The notes under the pieces are model-generated. The model saw nothing but the letters and a program-made list of their open reading frames with translations, did not search any database and had not been told where the DNA came from. From Hyphococcus sp. (lineage in GTDB: Bacteria; Pseudomonadota; Alphaproteobacteria; Caulobacterales; Parvularculaceae), in NCBI GenBank assembly GCA_013002535.1, contig JABDJK010000098.1:1-51332 (forward strand): a stretch of 51,332 bases of DNA, in the 5' to 3' direction. Both the position numbers and the translations under genes were made by a program. The stretch's first letter is position 1. The number at the start of each line of letters is the position of its first letter. Shown here in pieces: positions 3,558 to 29,495 of the stretch.

Positions 3558-4346
3558 TTACCCAGTAATATCAACGACGCCATCGGGGCCGCGCGCGTAG
3601 AGCGCCATATTGGCTTCCGCCGCTTTCCGCAAGGCGAAATCTGTCGGCGCCGAAATTGTCGCAAGGGCGGTGACGCCAAGCGCCGCTGACTTTTGCACCA
3701 GCTCATAAGAACACCGGGACGACAAGACGACAAATCCACCTTTCATATCGGCGCCGGCGAGCGCCATCGCGCCGAGCAGTTTATCGAGCGCATTGTGCCG
3801 GCCGACATCCTCGCGGGCGAGTTGAATGTCGCCGTAAAGATTCGCCCACGCCGCGGCGTGTACAGTACGCGTGCGATTATTAATCGGTTGATGATCGCCA
3901 AGCGACGCGAATGCCGCTGCAACCGCTTCGTGCTTGAGGGATATTTTTTCCGCGGTGACTCTCGGCAAAGGGTCGAACAATTCATCGGCGTTTTCGAGGC
4001 CGCAAAGCCCGCAACCGACATTGCCCGGCAGGGTCCGCCGGCGCTGGCGAACATCGAGACGTTTAAGACGCGCATCCTCAATCTTTAACCTGAGATCGGC
4101 GCCTCGATCAGACCAATTAATATCGAGCGCTTTAATCTCATCAACGCTATCGACGATTTTCTCCGTCAGCGAAAATCCAACAGCGAAGTCTGTAATGTCC
4201 TGCGGCGTCGCCAACATCACTGCATAGTTGCGTCGGTTATAGACTATGGCGACAGGCGTTTCTTCTGGGATGGCCCACTTTCCATCGGTGACGGAATGCT
4301 CGACATCCGTTGGCGGCGGCGCGCCGGTTTCATTTACCGGAAACAC
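3558..4346 (-). CDS. fdhD: Formate dehydrogenase accessory sulfurtransferase FdhD
   Basis: FdhD passes sulfur from a cysteine desulfurase to the molybdenum cofactor and is required for formate dehydrogenase activity. The 262-residue protein carries the essential CxxC as GCGLCG, the central segment RTRTVHAAAW, and DVGRHNALDKLLG, all hallmarks of the family. The start is GTG at 4344-4346, overlapping the TAG stop of fdsA by one base (TAGTG), which indicates translational coupling to its client enzyme. It corresponds to fdsC in the fdsGBACD operons of other Proteobacteria. No fdsD-like small gene follows. The next gene is the MFS transporter. Confidence 0.95.
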   Translation of the reverse strand: MFPVNETGAPPPTDVEHSVTDGKWAIPEETPVAIVYNRRNYAVMLATPQDITDFAVGFSLTEKIVDSVDEIKALDINWSDRGADLRLKIEDARLKRLDVRQRRRTLPGNVGCGLCGLENADELFDPLPRVTAEKISLKHEAVAAAFASLGDHQPINNRTRTVHAAAWANLYGDIQLAREDVGRHNALDKLLGAMALAGADMKGGFVVLSSRCSYELVQKSAALGVTALATISAPTDFALRKAAEANMALYARGPDGVVDITG

Positions 4347-16543: not shown

Positions 16544-18355
16544 TTAATTCAACGGCCATCGCCGCTCTAACGGCGCGCCAGTTTTGAGATCAACATTTGC
16601 TTCGCGAAGACCATCGACAAGCGGCGCAATGAAGTCGCCGAGGAGCGCAGCAATATCTGACTGCGACTTGCGCAAGGGTTCGCGCACTTGCGTCGCACTG
16701 AATGTCGCGACCGGACCGTCATTTTGATGAAAGGAAAGACACCGCTCGTCCCAATCAAGCCCGCAATGTTGAAGCAATCGGCGCGCCTCTGACTCAAAAT
16801 CGACAATCAAGCTTTCGTATTGAAACAAAGAGCCTTTCGGAATTTCCGCTGCGCTCCACAGAGCATAAACGCCATAATAATGCGCGATGTCAGACATCGA
16901 GACGGCATAGGGCCACGCCTTGGCGAAGTCATTCCGGTAAATGGAAAACCCCGTTTTTACCGGATTACGCCGCGTATGAATGATCGGCGCAGATGGGAAC
17001 AGCGTTTTGATTAAAGCACTGGACCGAAAATTGAGCGGCTGTTTGTCCACAATAAATTTCGCCGCACGCATATGGCGCAGTTCACCCAAATATTGGCCGC
17101 GCCATTTTCGTAAACGGTCCTGCGGATAATCCGCGAAAGACGCGCCGCGATTTTGAAGCGCCCATTGCGTAATATCGTGTTGCGCCTCAGCAATTCCGTT
17201 TAACTCGCCTGCGCCCTCGACTTCGGGGTGCGCTGCGAGAATGCTCTGCAATAGAGTCGTGCCGGACCGCGGCATCCCGATGATAAATATTGGCTTTGGT
17301 TCATCGCTTTCCTCGACGAATGGCGCCGGCTGCAGGGAGCAGAAGGTAGTCATCAAATTGAATTCAGCTTCTGCGTGCGACCGATCATATTGCCGGCCCT
17401 CATTCGCCAAATTCTTCCGCGTGATGGCATTCGCTTCTTCGAAAGACGCCATCGCCTCTGGATAATTCTCGGCAGCAAACAAAATATCGCCCAGCGCGAA
17501 GTTCAATGAGGCGCGATGCTCGCCCGGCAATCGCGCGTCATTCTTTAGCCGCTCGATTGATGCTTTTATTTCGTCGTCAACTTTCCCTTTTCGTAGCGTG
17601 ACGAACTGACAATAAGCCGGTGCAAAATATCGATCTGCATCGATTGCAGCGCGACTTGATCTTGCCGCTTCCTCAAGATCACCCATGATCATTTGAAGCC
17701 GTCCTTGCGTATAGAACGACTGCGCTGTCGGCGACGCCATTTCGTGGGCTTTATCGAGCGCTCGCAACCCTTCTTCATAATTGAAGGCGCCGAGGCAAAG
17801 CCTGGCATAGGTTACCCATGCGGCCGCATCCTTCGGCGCGTTCTCAACGACTTTCAAATAGGCCGCACAGGCGGCGTCAAATTCGCCACTTTCAAATTGC
17901 GCATTCGCCAGCGATTTCAGCGCATCCGCATCTTCCGGTTTGACGCCCAATCGTTTGCGCGCCATTGCAGCCATGGACGACCACTGACGCAAATTTTGTG
18001 CAGCGATAGCGCCAACGGAAAATGCATTTTTATGGTCCGGCGCCGTTTCAAGCGCGGCCTCGCAAGCGCGCAAGGCTTCGTCAAAATTGCCAAGCGCCGC
18101 CATTGCGCCGGCATATCCGGCCAACGCATCAGCATTTTCAGGATCGAGCTCAAAGCCGCGCCGATAGGCTTGCGCGGACGCCTGAAAATTCTGGCGATTG
18201 CTTTCCGCCGCCCCGAGCGACGCCCAATTGGCGGAAACCGCCGGCGCAGCTTTCACAACCTCTCGCCATGCGAGCGCGGCGGCTTGCATATCGCCTTTTT
18301 TCTGGGCTTTGCTTGCGCGTTTTTTAAAGGCGCGAGTGTCACGTCTGTCGGTCAA
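16544..18355 (-). CDS. TPR-repeat sulfotransferase family protein
   Basis: A 603-residue two-domain protein. Residues about 20-330 are tetratricopeptide repeats, with units such as WASLGAAESNRQNFQASAQA and ALAGYAGAMAALGNFDEALR. The C-terminal part from about 355 is a sulfotransferase domain with the 5'-PSB loop FIIGMPRSGTTLLQ (P-loop 360-367) and a 3'-phosphate region around HTRRNPVKTGFSIYRNDF. It probably transfers sulfate from PAPS to an unknown acceptor. No signal peptide is visible. It starts 83 bases after flgL on the same strand, so it may be read through from the flgK promoter. A link to filament or surface decoration is speculative. Such fusions are frequent in Hyphomonadaceae-like genomes. 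Confidence 0.9.
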   Translation of the reverse strand: MTDRRDTRAFKKRASKAQKKGDMQAAALAWREVVKAAPAVSANWASLGAAESNRQNFQASAQAYRRGFELDPENADALAGYAGAMAALGNFDEALRACEAALETAPDHKNAFSVGAIAAQNLRQWSSMAAMARKRLGVKPEDADALKSLANAQFESGEFDAACAAYLKVVENAPKDAAAWVTYARLCLGAFNYEEGLRALDKAHEMASPTAQSFYTQGRLQMIMGDLEEAARSSRAAIDADRYFAPAYCQFVTLRKGKVDDEIKASIERLKNDARLPGEHRASLNFALGDILFAAENYPEAMASFEEANAITRKNLANEGRQYDRSHAEAEFNLMTTFCSLQPAPFVEESDEPKPIFIIGMPRSGTTLLQSILAAHPEVEGAGELNGIAEAQHDITQWALQNRGASFADYPQDRLRKWRGQYLGELRHMRAAKFIVDKQPLNFRSSALIKTLFPSAPIIHTRRNPVKTGFSIYRNDFAKAWPYAVSMSDIAHYYGVYALWSAAEIPKGSLFQYESLIVDFESEARRLLQHCGLDWDERCLSFHQNDGPVATFSATQVREPLRKSQSDIAALLGDFIAPLVDGLREANVDLKTGAPLERRWPLN

Positions 18356-18438: not shown

Positions 18439-19353
18439 TTAGATAAAGTTCAACAGCGACAATTCAGTGGCGCGCGCGAGCGCCTGGGCCGACGCCTGTA
18501 TCGCTATCTGATCCTGATTGAGGCGCGAAAGCGCCTCTGCGATATCAGCATCTTCAATCTCCGCGGAAACTATTTCCGCGAGGTCACGGCGCGCAACATT
18601 GCGATTGACCGCGTCCGCAGCTTGTCCTTGCGCGACGGCGCTGAAGCCAAGAGTTTGATACAGCTCGTCAGCGATCTCGGTAAACGCTGCATTCTTGTCG
18701 ATGATGAACGCCCGCTGGGCATCGGTCAGGTTTCCAATAAACGGACCGAGTGCGGCTTCTGCATTGGCAAGCTCCTGTAATTCGCCAAACAGCCGCCGCG
18801 CGATTTCGCTGGCGACCGGGCCGCCATCGATATTAACGCCCTCTTCCACGGCGAGGCTTGCCCGTGCGCCCTCGTTAAAGACATCGTCGAGATCAGCCGC
18901 GGATCCGATATCGCCGAGCGATGAAAGGCCGACCGGCCGAACTGTACCATCGACGCCGCCAAACAAATAAACACCGCCGAGTTCAACGTTCAGGGCTGAA
19001 ATGATCCGTTGCGCCGCGGTTTCCAGTTCCGGCAACAAGAGTTCCGCACTGCCCGTCGCAAGAGTCCGGACAAAACCGGCGCGCGAGTCCTCGACCGCCG
19101 CCGCAACCGTCTCGATACTTGCGCCGATCAATTCATGGCGCGAAAGAGCAACTTCGCTGGCGTTCTCATAGGCGTTCGCACGTGTGAAGACGCCTTCCGC
19201 GGAAATCAAGCGCAACGCATCGGCGCCGTATTCTCCATAGGTCTGGAATTCTTTACCGCTCGACAATTGCAGCTGGTGCGTCTCAGCGGAGCCTTGCGCG
19301 CGCTGAAATCCCTGAAGAAGCAAAGCCTGCATACCTAATTCGGAAACGGCCAT
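18439..19353 (-). CDS. flgL: Flagellar hook-filament junction protein FlgL (HAP3)
   Basis: Second junction protein between hook and filament, exported by the flagellar type III system. It has 304 residues with flagellin-like ends. The N-terminus has GMQALLLQGFQRAQGSAETHQLQLSSGKEF and the C-terminal helix has LSRLNQDQIAIQASAQALARATELSLLNFI, both coiled-coil D0/D1-type regions. Each is quoted here in part: QLQLSSGKEF and LNQDQIAIQASAQAL. It follows flgK by 12 bases on the same strand, as in most flagellar systems. Expression is expected from the sigma-54 promoter at 20889-20904. Confidence 0.92.
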   Translation of the reverse strand: MAVSELGMQALLLQGFQRAQGSAETHQLQLSSGKEFQTYGEYGADALRLISAEGVFTRANAYENASEVALSRHELIGASIETVAAAVEDSRAGFVRTLATGSAELLLPELETAAQRIISALNVELGGVYLFGGVDGTVRPVGLSSLGDIGSAADLDDVFNEGARASLAVEEGVNIDGGPVASEIARRLFGELQELANAEAALGPFIGNLTDAQRAFIIDKNAAFTEIADELYQTLGFSAVAQGQAADAVNRNVARRDLAEIVSAEIEDADIAEALSRLNQDQIAIQASAQALARATELSLLNFI

Positions 19354-19365
19354 CGTAATAATTCC

Positions 19366-20721
19366 CTAGAGAATGTTGAGCAGCGATTGATAAAGCTCAT
19401 CGACCGCCGCGATCACCCGCGCATTGGCGCTGTAGGACCGCTGAAACAAGATGAGGTTAGAGAGTTCTTCGTCGAGATTGACGCCGCCTTCATTGAGGAG
19501 CCGCAATTCAACTTCTGAGGCAAAGGCCTCCGCCGTCGTGCTGCGTTCCTCAGCGACGCGCGATGCGGCGCCGATTTGCGTGACGGCAGAGATAACATTT
19601 TGCGCTTCCGGTGTAGCGCCGAGGGCTGCGAGTGCGCCGGCGCCGGATCCGTCATTAGCGCCGCCAGCCGCGCCGCCCGTAGGGCGCGCGATCGCGAGTT
19701 GTGCCGGGTCGCCGGCAATGACGGCATTCACGGTGAAAGCGTCGTCGGTCTCGATGATCAGCGGCGTTGTCGCTGGTGCGGTCGCGCCGACTGAAGCGTT
19801 GCCAGCGTAAACAGTATTGATTTGTCCAGCGATGTCGCGCGCCGCCGTATCAACAATCGTGCGCAAGGCCGGGAGTTCGGTGTTGCGCAGGGCGAGCAAG
19901 CCGCCGATCTCTCCGCCGGTCAGGCTGGCGTTGATGTCTGCTGCGATTGGCGCGGTCGCGCCGCTAGCCGGATCAACCGATGACAAGCCAATCGTCGACG
20001 CAGCGCCGCCGGTTAAATTCAATGCGCGGAAACCGCCGGAATTCGCCAGCAATTGGCCGTCGCCGGTCGTTACCGTGACGCGACCATCGTCAGCGCGGGA
20101 TACGTTGATGTCGATCAGTGTTGAAAGTTCTTTGAGACGCGCATCGATCTCGTCGCCTGCGCCATTGGAGTCCGGGGCGATCTGATTGAGATTGTAAATA
20201 TCTTCCAGAAGCGTGTTGGCGCGGTCGGCTTGCGCCTGCAAGCGCGCATCGGCGGCGACAGATTCGTCATCGATAGCGTTGATGGTGCGCGAAAAAGCGC
20301 CGAACGCCGCGTCGAGCGCATCAATTGCGACGGCTTTCGCAGCGATGGAATTCGGTGTGGCGCTGAGCGCAGTGAAAGCCGCAAACGCTTCATCCAGCTT
20401 GTGGGCGAAAGAAATGTTATCGCCGGGCGCACCCAATGACGCTTCCACCCGCGACAGGGCTTCGGCGACCACTGAAGTCGAACTGGCGTCAGATGCGCCG
20501 GCAAACCCTGCGTTTTGTAAAAATCGATTAACCCCTGCCCGCTCGATTTCAACGCCAACGCCAGAGAACTGGTTCGGGATGGCGTCAGTAAAGAACCGTA
20601 CTTCGCGACGCTTGAAGTCCGCCGTATTGACGTTGGCGATATTTTCCGACGTCGCCGCGATGGCTTCCTGGTTTGCGAGCAATCCTGAAACCGCCGTATT
20701 GAGTGCAACAGTCAAACTCAT
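19366..20721 (-). CDS. flgK: Flagellar hook-associated protein FlgK (HAP1)
   Basis: First hook-filament junction protein, 451 residues. The N-terminus has the rod/hook-family motif SENIANVNTADFKRRE after ALNTAVSGLLANQEA, and the C-terminus has NLILFQRSYSANARVI followed by the final helix VDELYQSLLNIL. These ends form the coiled-coil packing domains common to FlgE and FlgK. ATG 20721 is preceded by GGGAG at 8 bases and overlaps the stop of a 43-codon ORF as ATGA. It is shorter than enteric FlgK because the central variable domain is small. Confidence 0.95.
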   Translation of the reverse strand: MSLTVALNTAVSGLLANQEAIAATSENIANVNTADFKRREVRFFTDAIPNQFSGVGVEIERAGVNRFLQNAGFAGASDASSTSVVAEALSRVEASLGAPGDNISFAHKLDEAFAAFTALSATPNSIAAKAVAIDALDAAFGAFSRTINAIDDESVAADARLQAQADRANTLLEDIYNLNQIAPDSNGAGDEIDARLKELSTLIDINVSRADDGRVTVTTGDGQLLANSGGFRALNLTGGAASTIGLSSVDPASGATAPIAADINASLTGGEIGGLLALRNTELPALRTIVDTAARDIAGQINTVYAGNASVGATAPATTPLIIETDDAFTVNAVIAGDPAQLAIARPTGGAAGGANDGSGAGALAALGATPEAQNVISAVTQIGAASRVAEERSTTAEAFASEVELRLLNEGGVNLDEELSNLILFQRSYSANARVIAAVDELYQSLLNIL

Positions 20722-20849
20722 GAGCGCGCACTCCCGCCATAGATTTCGCCCGGCAGAATTTGCCGCAGCGGTAAATCTTTCCGGTCAAATTTTACCGGCA
20801 TCAGGGCGCTGTTTTCTACGAACGCCTTATTCCATGCGGGGGACGCCAT
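20718..20849 (-). CDS. Small 43-aa ORF leading the flgKL operon
   Basis: ATG 20847-20849 to TGA 20718-20720 encodes a basic peptide of 43 residues, beginning MASPAWNKAFVENSAL and ending LRQILPGEIYGGSARS. It has a plausible ribosome site (AAAGGA, 11 bases upstream), begins about 29 bases after the start point predicted from the sigma-54 element at 20889-20904, and its TGA overlaps the flgK ATG (ATGA). Those three facts together suggest a translated gene or a leader peptide coupled to flgK. I do not recognise any family. It has no membrane segment or signal peptide. Confidence 0.6.
   Translation of the reverse strand: MASPAWNKAFVENSALMPVKFDRKDLPLRQILPGEIYGGSARS
20781..20798. promoter_or_regulatory. 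Imperfect palindrome inside the small ORF
   Basis: CCGGTCAAATTTTACCGG is a nearly perfect dyad (one internal mismatch). It lies about 80-97 bases downstream of the start point predicted for the leftward sigma-54 promoter. Its arms resemble the GC-rich ends and A/T core of the other candidate FlbD sites at 20969 and 24449. Caulobacter ftr enhancers can lie near 100 bases from the promoter, upstream or downstream. It may equally be a chance result of coding sequence. Confidence 0.35.
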
Positions 20850-20888
20850 TTTACGTGCGGTCCTTTCAGTGAAACTCGACCCTATTAT

Positions 20889-20904
20889 TGCAACCGGTAA
20901 GCCA
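20889..20904 (-). promoter_or_regulatory. Sigma-54 promoter for small ORF-flgK-flgL
   Basis: On the minus strand the sequence is TGGCTTACCGGTTGCA, which keeps the invariant GG and GC at the correct 10-base spacing (consensus TGGCACG-N4-TTGCA). The predicted start point near 20878 leaves a 29-base leader before the small ORF. Late flagellar genes of Caulobacter-type bacteria are sigma-54 and FlbD dependent, and flbD lies in this window. Confidence 0.8.
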
Positions 20905-20968
20905 GATGAATTTCGGCGTTGCCATGATCGGCAGTCTTTGCGCCAACCGGCAGAATATGCAGGCGATA

Positions 20969-20981
20969 ATTGCCGGGCAAT
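20969..20981. promoter_or_regulatory. Candidate FlbD enhancer between divergent sigma-54 promoters
   Basis: ATTGCCGGGCAAT is an exact 13-base palindrome. Its centre is about 97 bases from the predicted leftward start point and about 89 from the rightward one, which is the distance expected for an enhancer serving both promoters. The half-site ATTGCCGGG recurs just upstream of fliF at 24455-24463. FlbD binding is inferred. Confidence 0.5.
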
Positions 20982-21037
20982 CCACCGTTTACGGATTATT
21001 ATCCATGACAGGCCGCATGTTGCATGGGAATCAGAAC

Positions 21038-21053
21038 TGGCAAGCCCCTTGCG
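21038..21053 (+). promoter_or_regulatory. Sigma-54 promoter for fliK-flgD-flgE
   Basis: TGGCAAGCCCCTTGCG matches the sigma-54 consensus closely, with GG and GC separated by 10 bases. The start point would be near 21064, about 32 bases before the fliK ATG at 21096. It is back to back with the flgK promoter. Confidence 0.85.
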
Positions 21054-21095
21054 ATAAGTAACGCGCGCGAAAATTCGTAAGGGCAAACACGCACA

Positions 21096-21995
21096 ATGAG
21101 TGACGTCGGATTATTGATCGAAGCGACCATGCAGGACGCCGTCGCGGGCTTGAAAAAACCGGTGATTACGCGCGAAGATGCTGCGCACGCTTTTTCATTT
21201 GCATCCGCTGTCACCGCCCTTGAAGGCCGAGCCGCGCAATCGCTGGAGACCCACGGCGCGGCGCCGCAGAACGCGAGCGTCGGTAAACAGACGGGCGGCC
21301 AGCAATCCGAGACGACAAGCACAAAGACAACGACGCCGGCCCAGCAATCCGCTGCCTCCACATCGGACCCCGCCTCCTCTAAATCAGCGCTGGCTCAGCA
21401 ATCGACCTCACCTCAGGCAAATCCAACGCAAGCAACCACGCTAGCCGCGCCAATCGCGCAATCGCCAGCACAAGCGAGCGCAGCTATTGCCGCGACCGCC
21501 ACTGGCGCAGCCGCAGTTCAGACCGCCCACGCCGCGAAAGCCGATGCCGCGCTACGCCCGACGATAGACGTGCGCGCCCCGTTTACGTCGAAGCTTGCAC
21601 GCCCCGAAGCCCTCGCCAAAGCGCCGCCTTCCGTGCAGGACTTCGCCAAATTTATCGCCCGGCGCCTTGATAGCGGCGCGTCGGTTTTTGAATTGCGCCT
21701 TGACCCGCCCTCCCTCGGCCGTGTCGAAGCGCAGATGAAGGTTGCTGATGACGGTGAAACCAAACTCTCGCTCAAATTCGATAATCAAACAGCGCTCGAC
21801 ATGTTTTCGCGCGATGAAACGGATCTGCGTCAGAGTCTTGCCGATGCCGGCTTCGCCCTCGGCCGTGATCGGCTGGAACTTATTTTGAAAGAAGACGCTG
21901 CGCCGTCGTTCGAGACTGGCGACGACGCCGCGCTCACCCCAGAAAATTATGCTCGCTTTGGTTATTCCCAAGGCGTCATCGATTTGACCATTTAG
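21096..21995 (+). CDS. fliK: Flagellar hook-length control protein FliK
   Basis: Secreted ruler protein that measures the hook and switches export specificity through FlhB. The 299-residue product has a low-complexity Ala/Gln/Ser/Thr-rich middle (about 60-180), as usual for FliK, and a conserved C-terminal Flg_hook domain with LRLDPPSLGRVEAQMKV and LRQSLADAGFALGRDRLELIL. It is the first gene after the rightward sigma-54 promoter and is followed by flgD after 9 bases. This fliK-flgD-flgE order groups hook-length control, cap and hook subunit in one transcript. Confidence 0.93.
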   Translation: MSDVGLLIEATMQDAVAGLKKPVITREDAAHAFSFASAVTALEGRAAQSLETHGAAPQNASVGKQTGGQQSETTSTKTTTPAQQSAASTSDPASSKSALAQQSTSPQANPTQATTLAAPIAQSPAQASAAIAATATGAAAVQTAHAAKADAALRPTIDVRAPFTSKLARPEALAKAPPSVQDFAKFIARRLDSGASVFELRLDPPSLGRVEAQMKVADDGETKLSLKFDNQTALDMFSRDETDLRQSLADAGFALGRDRLELILKEDAAPSFETGDDAALTPENYARFGYSQGVIDLTI

Positions 21996-24053: not shown

Positions 24054-24344
24054 ATGACTGTCGTAGGAGAACAAACCTCGGCGCCCGTAAAAAAGGACCC
24101 GTATGTTATCGGGCCTGACGGCACGCCGTTGACACTTAAAGATTTACCGCCGCCATCTACCAAACGATGGGTTATTCGTCGAAAGGCCGAAGTTGTTGCT
24201 GCTGTACGCGGTGAACTGCTGACGCTTGAGGAAGCATGTGATCGCTATACGTTGACGGTGGAAGAGTTTCTTTCCTGGCAAAAAGCGATTGACCAGTTTG
24301 GCCTGCCAGGGCTTCGCGCAACTCGCGTGCAGCAATATCGCTAA
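24054..24344 (+). CDS. sciP: CtrA inhibitor SciP (DUF1153)
   Basis: Small helix-turn-helix-like protein (96 aa) that, in Caulobacter, contacts CtrA at its target promoters and blocks RNA polymerase recruitment after S phase. The sequence has the full DUF1153 core: DGTPLTLKDLPPPSTKRWV, RRKAEVVAAVRGELLTLEEA, YTLTVEEFLSWQKAID and the end GLRATRVQQYR. I choose ATG 24054 with AAGGGG upstream. A TTG at 24027 adds nine residues but looks unlikely. Location between flgE and fliF is the same as in Caulobacter. A strong terminator follows, so it is a single transcription unit or the end of the flgE transcript. Confidence 0.95.
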   Translation: MTVVGEQTSAPVKKDPYVIGPDGTPLTLKDLPPPSTKRWVIRRKAEVVAAVRGELLTLEEACDRYTLTVEEFLSWQKAIDQFGLPGLRATRVQQYR

Positions 24345-24406: not shown

Positions 24407-24448
24407 CGTCCGAATGCAGAAACGAAACGCTTTCTTTACGACAAAGGG

Positions 24449-24461
24449 GGCAAAAATTGCC
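24449..24461. promoter_or_regulatory. Candidate FlbD operator at the fliF promoter
   Basis: GGCAAAAATTGCC is an A/T-centred dyad with arms GGCAA/TTGCC. The extended right arm ATTGCCGGG is shared with the palindrome at 20969-20981. It sits about 48 bases before the fliF GTG. In Caulobacter FlbD represses the class II fliF promoter through an ftr site near the start point, so a repressor role is likely here. Not proven. Confidence 0.45.
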
Positions 24462-24508
24462 GGGTGAGGACCGCATGTCGCGGCGGTTCAGGGATATGGC
24501 AGTCGGGC

Positions 24509-28157: not shown

Positions 28158-29495
28158 ATGCGGCTCCTGATCATCGGCGAACATTCCAGTGAACTTTCAA
28201 CCGCGGCGAAGATCGCCATGGATCGCGGCGCGCGCGTCTCATTCGCGCCTGACAACGAGGCCGGACTTTCCGCGCTCCGCAAAGGGCACGGCGCCGACCT
28301 TGTCATGATCGACGTTCGCCGCGATGTCGAAGCTTTCATCAAGGCCGCTGATGCAGAGCGCATAGCCGTTCCTGTCGTCGCATGTGGCGTAAAATCTGAC
28401 GCTGACGCCGCCGTCGCCGCCATTCGCGCTGGCGCGAAAGAATATGTGCCGCTGCCCCCGGACGCTGAATTAATTGCAGCGATTCTCGAGGCGGTCGTGG
28501 AAGAATCCTCTGATATGATCGTCGTTGATCCAGCGATGAAAAAAGTCGTGACCCTCGCCAATCAGGTTGCGGCGTCCGAAGCGTCTATCCTGATCACCGG
28601 CGAAAGCGGCGTCGGCAAGGAAGTCGTTGCAAAATACGTTCATGCGAAATCAAAGCGTGCTGAAAAACCGTTTATCTCCATCAACTGTGCGGCGATCCCT
28701 GATAATCTTCTTGAGTCCGAATTGTTCGGTCACGAGAAAGGCGCCTTCACTGGCGCAGTCGCCCGGCGCATTGGCAAGTTTGAAGAAGCCGACGGCGGCA
28801 CGCTCCTTCTCGATGAGATTTCGGAAATGGATATCCGGTTGCAGGCGAAGCTTCTGCGGGTATTGCAGGAGCGCGTCGTTGATCGCGTCGGCGGCGGCAA
28901 ACCGATCAAGGTCGATATTCGCATCATCGCGACTTCGAACCGCGATCTCGCCGACGAAGTTCGCAAGAAAACCTTCCGCGAAGATTTGTTCTTCCGACTG
29001 AATGTCGTCAATCTGGATGTGCCGCCGCTGCGCAAGCGTCCGGCGGATATTATCGGCCTCGCCAATCACTTCATCCAGAAATATGCAGAACTAAACAGCG
29101 TGCCGCATCGGCCGCTTTCAGAAGCCGCCCAGCGCGCCGCCGCCGCGGCGCAATGGCCCGGCAATGTGCGCGAGTTAGAGAACACGATGCACCGCGCGGT
29201 ATTGCTTTCCGAGGGAGATGAGATCGGCGTTGACGCCATCCGCATTCCCGATGGTTCCGCGCCCGTCTCAACGAGCGGTGGAGATGGCGGCGCACCGGAA
29301 GCGCTCGTCGGGCAAACGGTGGCGCAAGTTGAGCAGGCGCTAATCCTGCAGACGCTTGACCATTGCCTCGGCAACCGCACTCATGCCGCGAATATCCTCG
29401 GTATTTCCATTCGTACCCTACGCAACAAACTAAAGCAGTACACAGAAGACGGCGTTCCCGTGCCGGCGCCCGGCGCCGAACGGCAGGCGGGATAG
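28158..29495 (+). CDS. flbD: Sigma-54-dependent flagellar regulator FlbD
   Basis: NtrC-family activator of class III/IV flagellar genes and repressor of fliF in Caulobacter, 445 residues. An N-terminal receiver-like domain (1-115) keeps D52 but shows GE at residues 7-8 instead of the acidic pair and lacks the usual lysine (GAKEYVPLP), so control by phosphorylation is doubtful. The AAA+ domain has Walker A GESGVGKE (148-155), GAFTGA (195-200) for sigma-54 contact, and Walker B GGTLLLDE. The C-terminal Fis-type helix-turn-helix is ANILGISIRTLRNKLKQY. A ribosome site (GAGGAGGCGAGCC) precedes the ATG. Likely partner FliX is not in this window. Confidence 0.94.
   Translation: MRLLIIGEHSSELSTAAKIAMDRGARVSFAPDNEAGLSALRKGHGADLVMIDVRRDVEAFIKAADAERIAVPVVACGVKSDADAAVAAIRAGAKEYVPLPPDAELIAAILEAVVEESSDMIVVDPAMKKVVTLANQVAASEASILITGESGVGKEVVAKYVHAKSKRAEKPFISINCAAIPDNLLESELFGHEKGAFTGAVARRIGKFEEADGGTLLLDEISEMDIRLQAKLLRVLQERVVDRVGGGKPIKVDIRIIATSNRDLADEVRKKTFREDLFFRLNVVNLDVPPLRKRPADIIGLANHFIQKYAELNSVPHRPLSEAAQRAAAAAQWPGNVRELENTMHRAVLLSEGDEIGVDAIRIPDGSAPVSTSGGDGGAPEALVGQTVAQVEQALILQTLDHCLGNRTHAANILGISIRTLRNKLKQYTEDGVPVPAPGAERQAG

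Follow-up and report, generated by a model that had tools for sequence, protein, structure and literature searches.

In the 51,332-nucleotide contig of a Hyphococcus species (Parvularculaceae) analysed here, referred to below as the window, the flagellar gene flgK is preceded by an open reading frame of 43 codons whose stop codon overlaps the flgK start. Read from the DNA of the window and its relatives, this frame is probably a translated leader, that is, an upstream open reading frame (uORF) that feeds flgK by translational coupling and carries the enhancer for the activator FlbD embedded within it. The frame, its start and its stop are conserved among relatives, palindromes of enhancer type lie inside it, and close pairs of sequences show no constraint on its amino acids. 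For much of the order it seems, on balance, credible that the FlbD enhancer of flgK would lie inside a translated uORF (nearly leaderless in Brevundimonas) that is read in one fixed codon phase and delivers ribosomes to flgK, with the peptide as a by-product.

In the proposed mechanism, RNA polymerase would start at a -24/-12 element about 29 nt 5' of the leader ORF, and the FlbD enhancer, made of two or three ftr-like palindromes, would lie downstream of the start site, in the transcribed leader. An enhancer in that position would force a leader of about 115–160 nt. The leader ORF would occupy the enhancer stretch, and ribosomes would load near the 5' end of the mRNA, follow the polymerase through the palindromic RNA, keep this RNA open, terminate at the TGA that overlaps with the start codon of flgK and begin again on flgK itself (termination-reinitiation coupling), with a possible benefit against polarity or RNA structure. 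Selection would then favour translation in one frame and a stop at the start of flgK over any particular peptide.

Anatomy of the leader and its promoter

The features on which the description relies are as follows.

20718..20849, minus strand: leader ORF, 43 codons plus TGA; the minus strand is open and the plus strand is interrupted by stops
20861..20866, minus strand: AAAGGA, Shine-Dalgarno-like, 11 nt 5' of the leader ATG
20890..20904, minus strand: sigma-54 -24/-12 element TGGCTTACCGGTTGC of the flgK operon, 0 mismatches to TGGC-N7-TTGC
21038..21052, plus strand: sigma-54 element of the divergent fliK-flgD-flgE operon, 0 mismatches to TGGC-N7-TTGC
19366..20721, minus strand: flgK (TIGR02492, 213.6 bits, cutoff 170.75)
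18439..19353, minus strand: flgL-like gene, next in the operon (Flagellin_C above its cutoff, flgL models below theirs)
28158..29495, plus strand: flbD, the sigma-54 activator expected on ftr sites (NF050807, 763.3 bits, cutoff 750)

The initial annotation had listed a sigma-54 element, a 29-base leader, AAAGGA, an ATG, 43 codons and a TGA fused with the flgK ATG, and its coordinates are right; the strand, which it left unstated, is the minus strand. The leader ATG occupies 20849-20847 and is followed by 43 sense codons and the TGA at 20720-20718, with which the flgK ATG at 20721-20719 overlaps to form ATGA. This TGA is partly supplied gratis by the second codon of flgK (AGN), and what is informative is that the frame stays open, that its ATG is fixed and that length changes preserve it.

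The exact TGGC-N7-TTGC pattern occurs twice in the window, at the flgK promoter and at the divergent fliK promoter. With one mismatch allowed it occurs 68 times, against a shuffle mean of 71.28, and since it is then no commoner than in shuffles, the sigma-54 element of flgK is credited by its place and not by the pattern alone. Counted from the -24/-12 spacing, the flgK mRNA would start near 20878, about 29 nt 5' of the leader ATG. Lying on the same mRNA as flgK, with an mRNA start predicted from the sigma-54 element, and having its own ATG and an end at the flgK start, the frame has the make-up of a putative uORF. The AAAGGA is found at identical spacing in three relatives (L016, L018 and L019) and is absent from some others, and a Shine-Dalgarno-like element is missing at some uORF starts.

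The surroundings are flagellar: fliK, flgD and flgE run divergently from flgK, while fliF, fliG, flbD and flhA are found further along the window. Genes for FliX and RpoN are located elsewhere in the genome, which therefore holds FlbD, FliX and RpoN together.

Conservation of the frame in the family of the window

With FlgK as the query, 20 of the 62 genomes searched in the window's family, its own included, gave matches at E<=1e-20. Seventeen loci were counted, namely the window and 16 relatives (50-73% identity) with flgK of the orthologous type and a readable flgK start; fragments without that start (L049, L050, L052), the second piece of the L048 gene (L053) and the other-type flgK of G021 (L051) were left out. 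A leader frame of 38-45 aa that stops at the flgK start was present in all 17 loci. The initial annotation had considered that the frame might be absent from or disrupted in relatives, and no frame-disrupting change was seen in the 16. The stop is the TGA of ATGA (GTGA in L019) in 16/17; in L014, where flgK begins ATGGGC, TAA replaces TGA as the leader stop, within TAATG. All loci but L047 and L048 (15/17) have a sigma-54 match between -165 and -186 relative to flgK. The RQ-x-LP core of the peptide falls at identical codons from the chosen ATG, without gaps, in 15 of 17, and the frames of L045 and L048 start elsewhere relative to this core. Extra in-frame ATGs occur 5' of the chosen one in L014, L016 and L022.

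Whether such frames arise by chance was assessed in two ways. In the coding test, an in-frame conservative-substitution score was compared with that of permuted alignment columns, per-column conservation being kept, using codons 2-33 of 15 sequences (L045 and L048, which give no gapless alignment, were excluded). These 480 codons (15 x 32) contain no stop, against a permutation mean of 15.8, and 0/2000 permutations equalled this result; in codons 2-17, outside the palindromes, the absence of stops has a P value of 0.002. Moreover, an ATG frame ending <=8 nt from the flgK start was present in 9/9 sigma-54 leaders of the window's own genus and 6/6 from the rest of the family, where shuffle means were 1.60 and 0.92, respectively, and 0/300 dinucleotide shuffles reached the observed values. 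The frame has been maintained in the evolution of this family.

Enhancer-like palindromes under the frame

The palindromes under the leader frame and between the divergent promoters, which we take to resemble the Caulobacter ftr (FlbD) enhancers, are listed below with their scores against an ftr-like consensus of 14 informative positions that was drawn from these very sequences.

20750..20766, no strand assigned: ftr-like palindrome B, 13/14, tied for best in the 51 kb with 4025-4041
20768..20784, no strand assigned: weaker ftr-like palindrome between A and B, 11/14
20782..20798, no strand assigned: ftr-like palindrome A, 11/14, its centre 32 bp (about 3 helical turns) from that of B
20929..20976, no strand assigned: ftr-like cluster between the divergent promoters (20929-20943, 20947-20963 and 20960-20976)

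A score of 13 was reached by 1/2000 shuffled leaders. The pair of palindromes 32 bp apart scores 12-13 in five relatives (L015, L017, L019, L020 and L043), and a counterpart of 20768..20784 at equal spacing (score 10-13) is among the top three sites in 10/16 relatives. Ftr-like palindromes are found between the sigma-54 promoter and the gene, and FlbD is predicted to bind them. RQ-x-LP is the best-conserved motif of the frame because the palindrome encodes RQ-x-LP in one codon phase. The other palindrome scoring 13, at 4025-4041, is inside the frame at 3558-4346, distant from the flagellar genes, and is possibly a chance occurrence.

Mullin and Newton reportedly found in 1993 that the downstream elements ftr2 and ftr3 are required for expression of flaN and flbG in Caulobacter, where flaN is presumably flgK and flbG the hook operon. 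The locus studied here is similar in having divergent sigma-54 promoters for flgK and the hook-region genes, enhancer-like palindromes 3' of the flgK promoter, and FlbD and FliX in the genome.

Phase locking and distribution beyond the family

Leaders from further clades were arranged in groups assigned by the author, near-identical leaders were collapsed, and L047, L048 and L181, having no sigma-54 match, were not counted. Among unique sigma-54 leaders, the leader ORF was present in 10/11 of the Caulobacter group, 27/29 of the Brevundimonas group and 9/22 of the other Caulobacteraceae, a group that also holds L042 (g28) and three leaders with the Caulobacter label g18 (L024, L025 and L029), the latter placed here because their leaders are similar. 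The groups labelled f5, f4 and f2 gave 5/7, 4/13 (P 0.107) and 0/2, respectively. With shuffle means of 0.17 to 3.58 per group, the ORF occurs more often than shuffling would give in f5 and the window's family as well as in the Caulobacter, Brevundimonas and other-Caulobacteraceae groups; leaders within one genus are related, so the shuffle P values overstate independence. When the Caulobacter group is defined by genus label, which adds L024, L025 and L029, the ORF is present in 11/14 and the common phase described below in 10/14.

Outside the groups, 34 loci, mostly of other clades (L102, L111-L115, L117-L119 and L121-L145), included 12 with an ATG frame ending <=8 nt from the flgK start; L147-L153 were also left out of the groups. 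A scan of the named genomes with the window's FlgK returned no match. As a control, 20 leaders of other-type flgK genes (L054-L073, picked by the author) were inspected: 0/20 has a leader ORF, 17/20 have no sigma-54-like match, and L059, L061 and L062 have a loose one. As the ORF is absent from some leaders in several groups, parts of the order can do without it.

The codon phase was followed in leaders with a site scoring >=11, by using the site nearest flgK if there were several, with L048 and L104 among those set aside. One codon phase through the palindrome, in a frame ending <=8 nt from the flgK start, was shared by 15/16 leaders of the window's family, 10/11 of the Caulobacter group and 26/28 of the Brevundimonas group, while the remaining two phases together accounted for 1, 2 and 1, respectively. 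In f4 the common phase was found in 3/10, and the most frequent phase is another one among the other Caulobacteraceae (6/22) and in f5 (4/6). Between 27 and 54 nt separate the site from flgK in leaders of the window's family and of the Brevundimonas group, always in steps of three with two exceptions: in L163 the leader stop shifts with the site distance, and in L046 another site scores best. Depending on the leader, the stop is at -2, +1, +7, -6 or -3 of the flgK ATG.

The Brevundimonas group adds a second regularity. In 19/29 unique leaders an ATG stands 29 or 30 nt from the T of the -24 element, approximately at the start site, against a background of 17/1740 positions. For 19/19 of these start-site ATGs, the length from ATG to flgK is equal modulo 3 across six length classes, and 18/19 of the frames are open through to the flgK start, which suggests that the leader ORF of this group would be nearly leaderless. 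Beyond what the initial annotation had proposed, then, a predicted FlbD-type enhancer underlies the frame, and the arrangement reaches Caulobacter and Brevundimonas.

These data bear directly on the strongest of the rival explanations, an unlikely one, in which the stretch acts as DNA only, a sigma-54 leader with downstream ftr (FlbD) sites whose frame is an untranslated by-product of the palindromes. The strength of the palindromes within the frame suits it, and so does the reported case of flaN and flbG, if flaN is indeed flgK. Palindromes, however, leave unexplained the fixed ATG, the absence of stops in codons 2-17 outside the sites, the modulo-3 lengths of the 19 Brevundimonas-group frames, the TAA of L014 and the single codon phase, all of which are expected if the leader ORF is translated and coupled to flgK.

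Two irregular cases may be recorded here. In L109 (Brevundimonas diminuta) the frame from the start-site ATG soon runs into a stop, and a 40-codon frame to flgK opens at another in-frame ATG, 21 nt further on. In some leaders of the other Caulobacteraceae (L170, L172 and L146, the last titled Phenylobacterium), the enhancer is read by the leader frame in another phase (...VSLCRAEP, with the stop at -6), as though this frame had been re-invented.

Constraint on the peptide

The substitution score was applied in the window's family in nine region or group tests, in which the whole frame gave P 0.0215 (by genus 0.10 and 0.13), codons 2-17 gave P 0.0005 (by genus 0.019 and 0.108), the core P 0.0205, the palindrome A region P 0.97 and a 39-codon set P 0.13. 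The +1 frame outscores the ORF frame in the g2 set (0.382 vs 0.186) and in the 39-codon set (0.264 vs 0.128), and it scores best in the site A region (0.833). Within Caulobacteraceae, where the 17 Caulobacter-group leaders were reduced to 11 for the coding test, amino-acid scores of the whole-ORF sets are not significant (P 0.62, 0.19, 0.12 and 0.44), and stop avoidance is significant in the same sets (0.012, 0.0195, 0.018 and 0.0055).

Close pairs point in the same direction. In the same 23 pairs, of which 22 are from Caulobacteraceae and 1 from the window's family, and which share sequences and are not independent, dN/dS is 0.97 for the leader versus 0.13 for flgK, while synonymous sites have diverged less in the leader (0.086) than they have in flgK (0.236). 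In the sole pair from the window's family, L015/L017, non-synonymous change exceeds synonymous change per site. The close pairs give no clear sign of purifying selection on the peptide, for which the initial annotation had proposed a check, although in the window's family substitutions in the N-terminal part are conservative. The alignments give good support to the open frame and place apparent amino-acid constraint in the N-terminal part only; the frame is kept while the peptide drifts, with the N-terminus in the window's family as a possible exception.

Some of these values also favour the DNA-only explanation, since a leader dN/dS of about 1 with reduced synonymous divergence is expected under constraint at the DNA level, and since the site A region lacks amino-acid constraint and is best read in the +1 frame. 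As to the three readings in the initial annotation, the frame, present in the window and 16/16 relatives, is kept without clear peptide constraint in close pairs: this supports a leader or start-coupling device and leaves a junction factor unsupported.

A functional small protein encoded by the first gene of the operon, be it an export, junction or regulatory factor, is accordingly improbable. What speaks for it is the P value of codons 2-17, with the N-terminal consensus MxKxAxxL...LPxRQxLP in the window's family, and the case of L048 (G016:C33), the most diverged ortholog, which lacks a recognisable sigma-54 element or ftr site (score 8) and retains a 41-codon frame ending in ATGA, with LPMGHFLP; L048 is the best hint that the peptide itself may matter. 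Against these, the window's own peptide (MASPAWNKAF...) departs from that consensus, the close pairs evolve as described, and the conserved C-terminal motif spells out the palindrome as read in that phase. Searching Pfam and NCBIfam with the window peptide gave 0 families at E<=1, and no match to it was found among phages. The initial annotation had suggested tblastn in relatives: in the 62 family genomes, matches beyond the window itself are weak (E 0.3-0.84), and one of them, G031:C57:4029-4094 (E 0.343), is directly 5' of the orthologous flgK, no other such genome being found.

RNA structure and attenuation

A regulatory leader peptide, which would tune flgK to flagellar assembly through nascent-peptide pausing or an attenuator, is the least probable of the explanations. 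The position and size of the frame are compatible with it, and leader coding sequences are known in Caulobacter from ribosome profiling (PMC4117421). Against it, there are 0 terminator-like sites in 20600-21100, the Rfam search of the leader returned no family, and the leader alignment contains no shared run of one amino acid. The fold z-score of the window leader is -1.48, with no clear excess of structure. Across the 17 loci, the flgK start region is unpaired at a mean of 0.34, versus 0.33 in shuffled leaders, and only in L044 and L048 is the flgK start more hidden than in nearly all of their 40 shuffles. As the start is no more hidden than in shuffles, no RNA switch was found for coupling to open; the coupling proposed for the leader ORF would work by delivery of ribosomes to the flgK start.

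Relation to known systems

Leader coding sequences and coupled uORFs are known already; the flgK case would add one that is locked in phase to a sigma-54 enhancer within it. Ribosome profiling in Caulobacter described leader coding sequences, for example ahead of trpS and ileS, and leaderless mRNAs are reported to be common there (PMC4117421). The flgK leader resembles these leader coding sequences in being short, opening an mRNA and preceding a longer gene in the same direction, if it is translated as predicted; it differs in its predicted sigma-54 enhancer, a feature not described for leaders in the available text of that report (PMC4117421). In the main text flgK has 0 occurrences, and a leader ORF of flgK, on which no printed account was found in the literature search, may already be tabulated among the 94 new coding sequences of the supplement (PMC4117421). 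Another example is mgtQ of Salmonella, a short ORF that promotes translation of mgtB and, as here, lies upstream on the same mRNA as the gene that it would affect (PMC8092293). According to the available text, mgtQ relies on alternative stem-loops and on acidic residues that destabilise the ribosome (PMC8092293). In the flgK leader neither such structure nor a shared acidic pattern was seen.

The literature search also returned no description of a reading frame over the downstream elements of flaN and flbG in Caulobacter.

The wider interest of the locus depends on the place of Caulobacter in the field. Flagellar timing is studied in this bacterium as a model, and the flgK/flaN leader is regarded there as DNA holding a promoter and an enhancer. 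Should the leader be translated, mutations in the downstream ftr elements may have altered translation besides FlbD binding, and the leader would show clearly that a uORF can be conserved for being translated and not for its peptide, with an enhancer locked to one phase. About 120 bp would then serve both transcriptional timing and the translation of the first hook-filament junction protein, encoded by flgK. This reading of the leader ORF is testable in laboratory strains.

Further observations on the flagellar genes

The source genome carries a second flgK (G000:C79:23949-25400, L054), with 28% identity to that of the window and with neither a sigma-54 element nor a leader ORF, which points to another set of flagellar genes, of a different type. 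In the window, a protein with TPR and sulfotransferase (PF13469) domains is encoded at 16544-18355, directly 3' of flgL and on the same strand. A DUF1153 protein (PF06627, 137.6 bits), which we take to belong to the SciP family of CtrA inhibitors, is encoded at 24054-24344, between flgE and fliF. Just 5' of the fliF frame, at 24447-24463, stands the palindrome GGGGCAAAAATTGCCGG (12/14), which is reminiscent of the ftr site through which FlbD represses the fliF promoter of Caulobacter.
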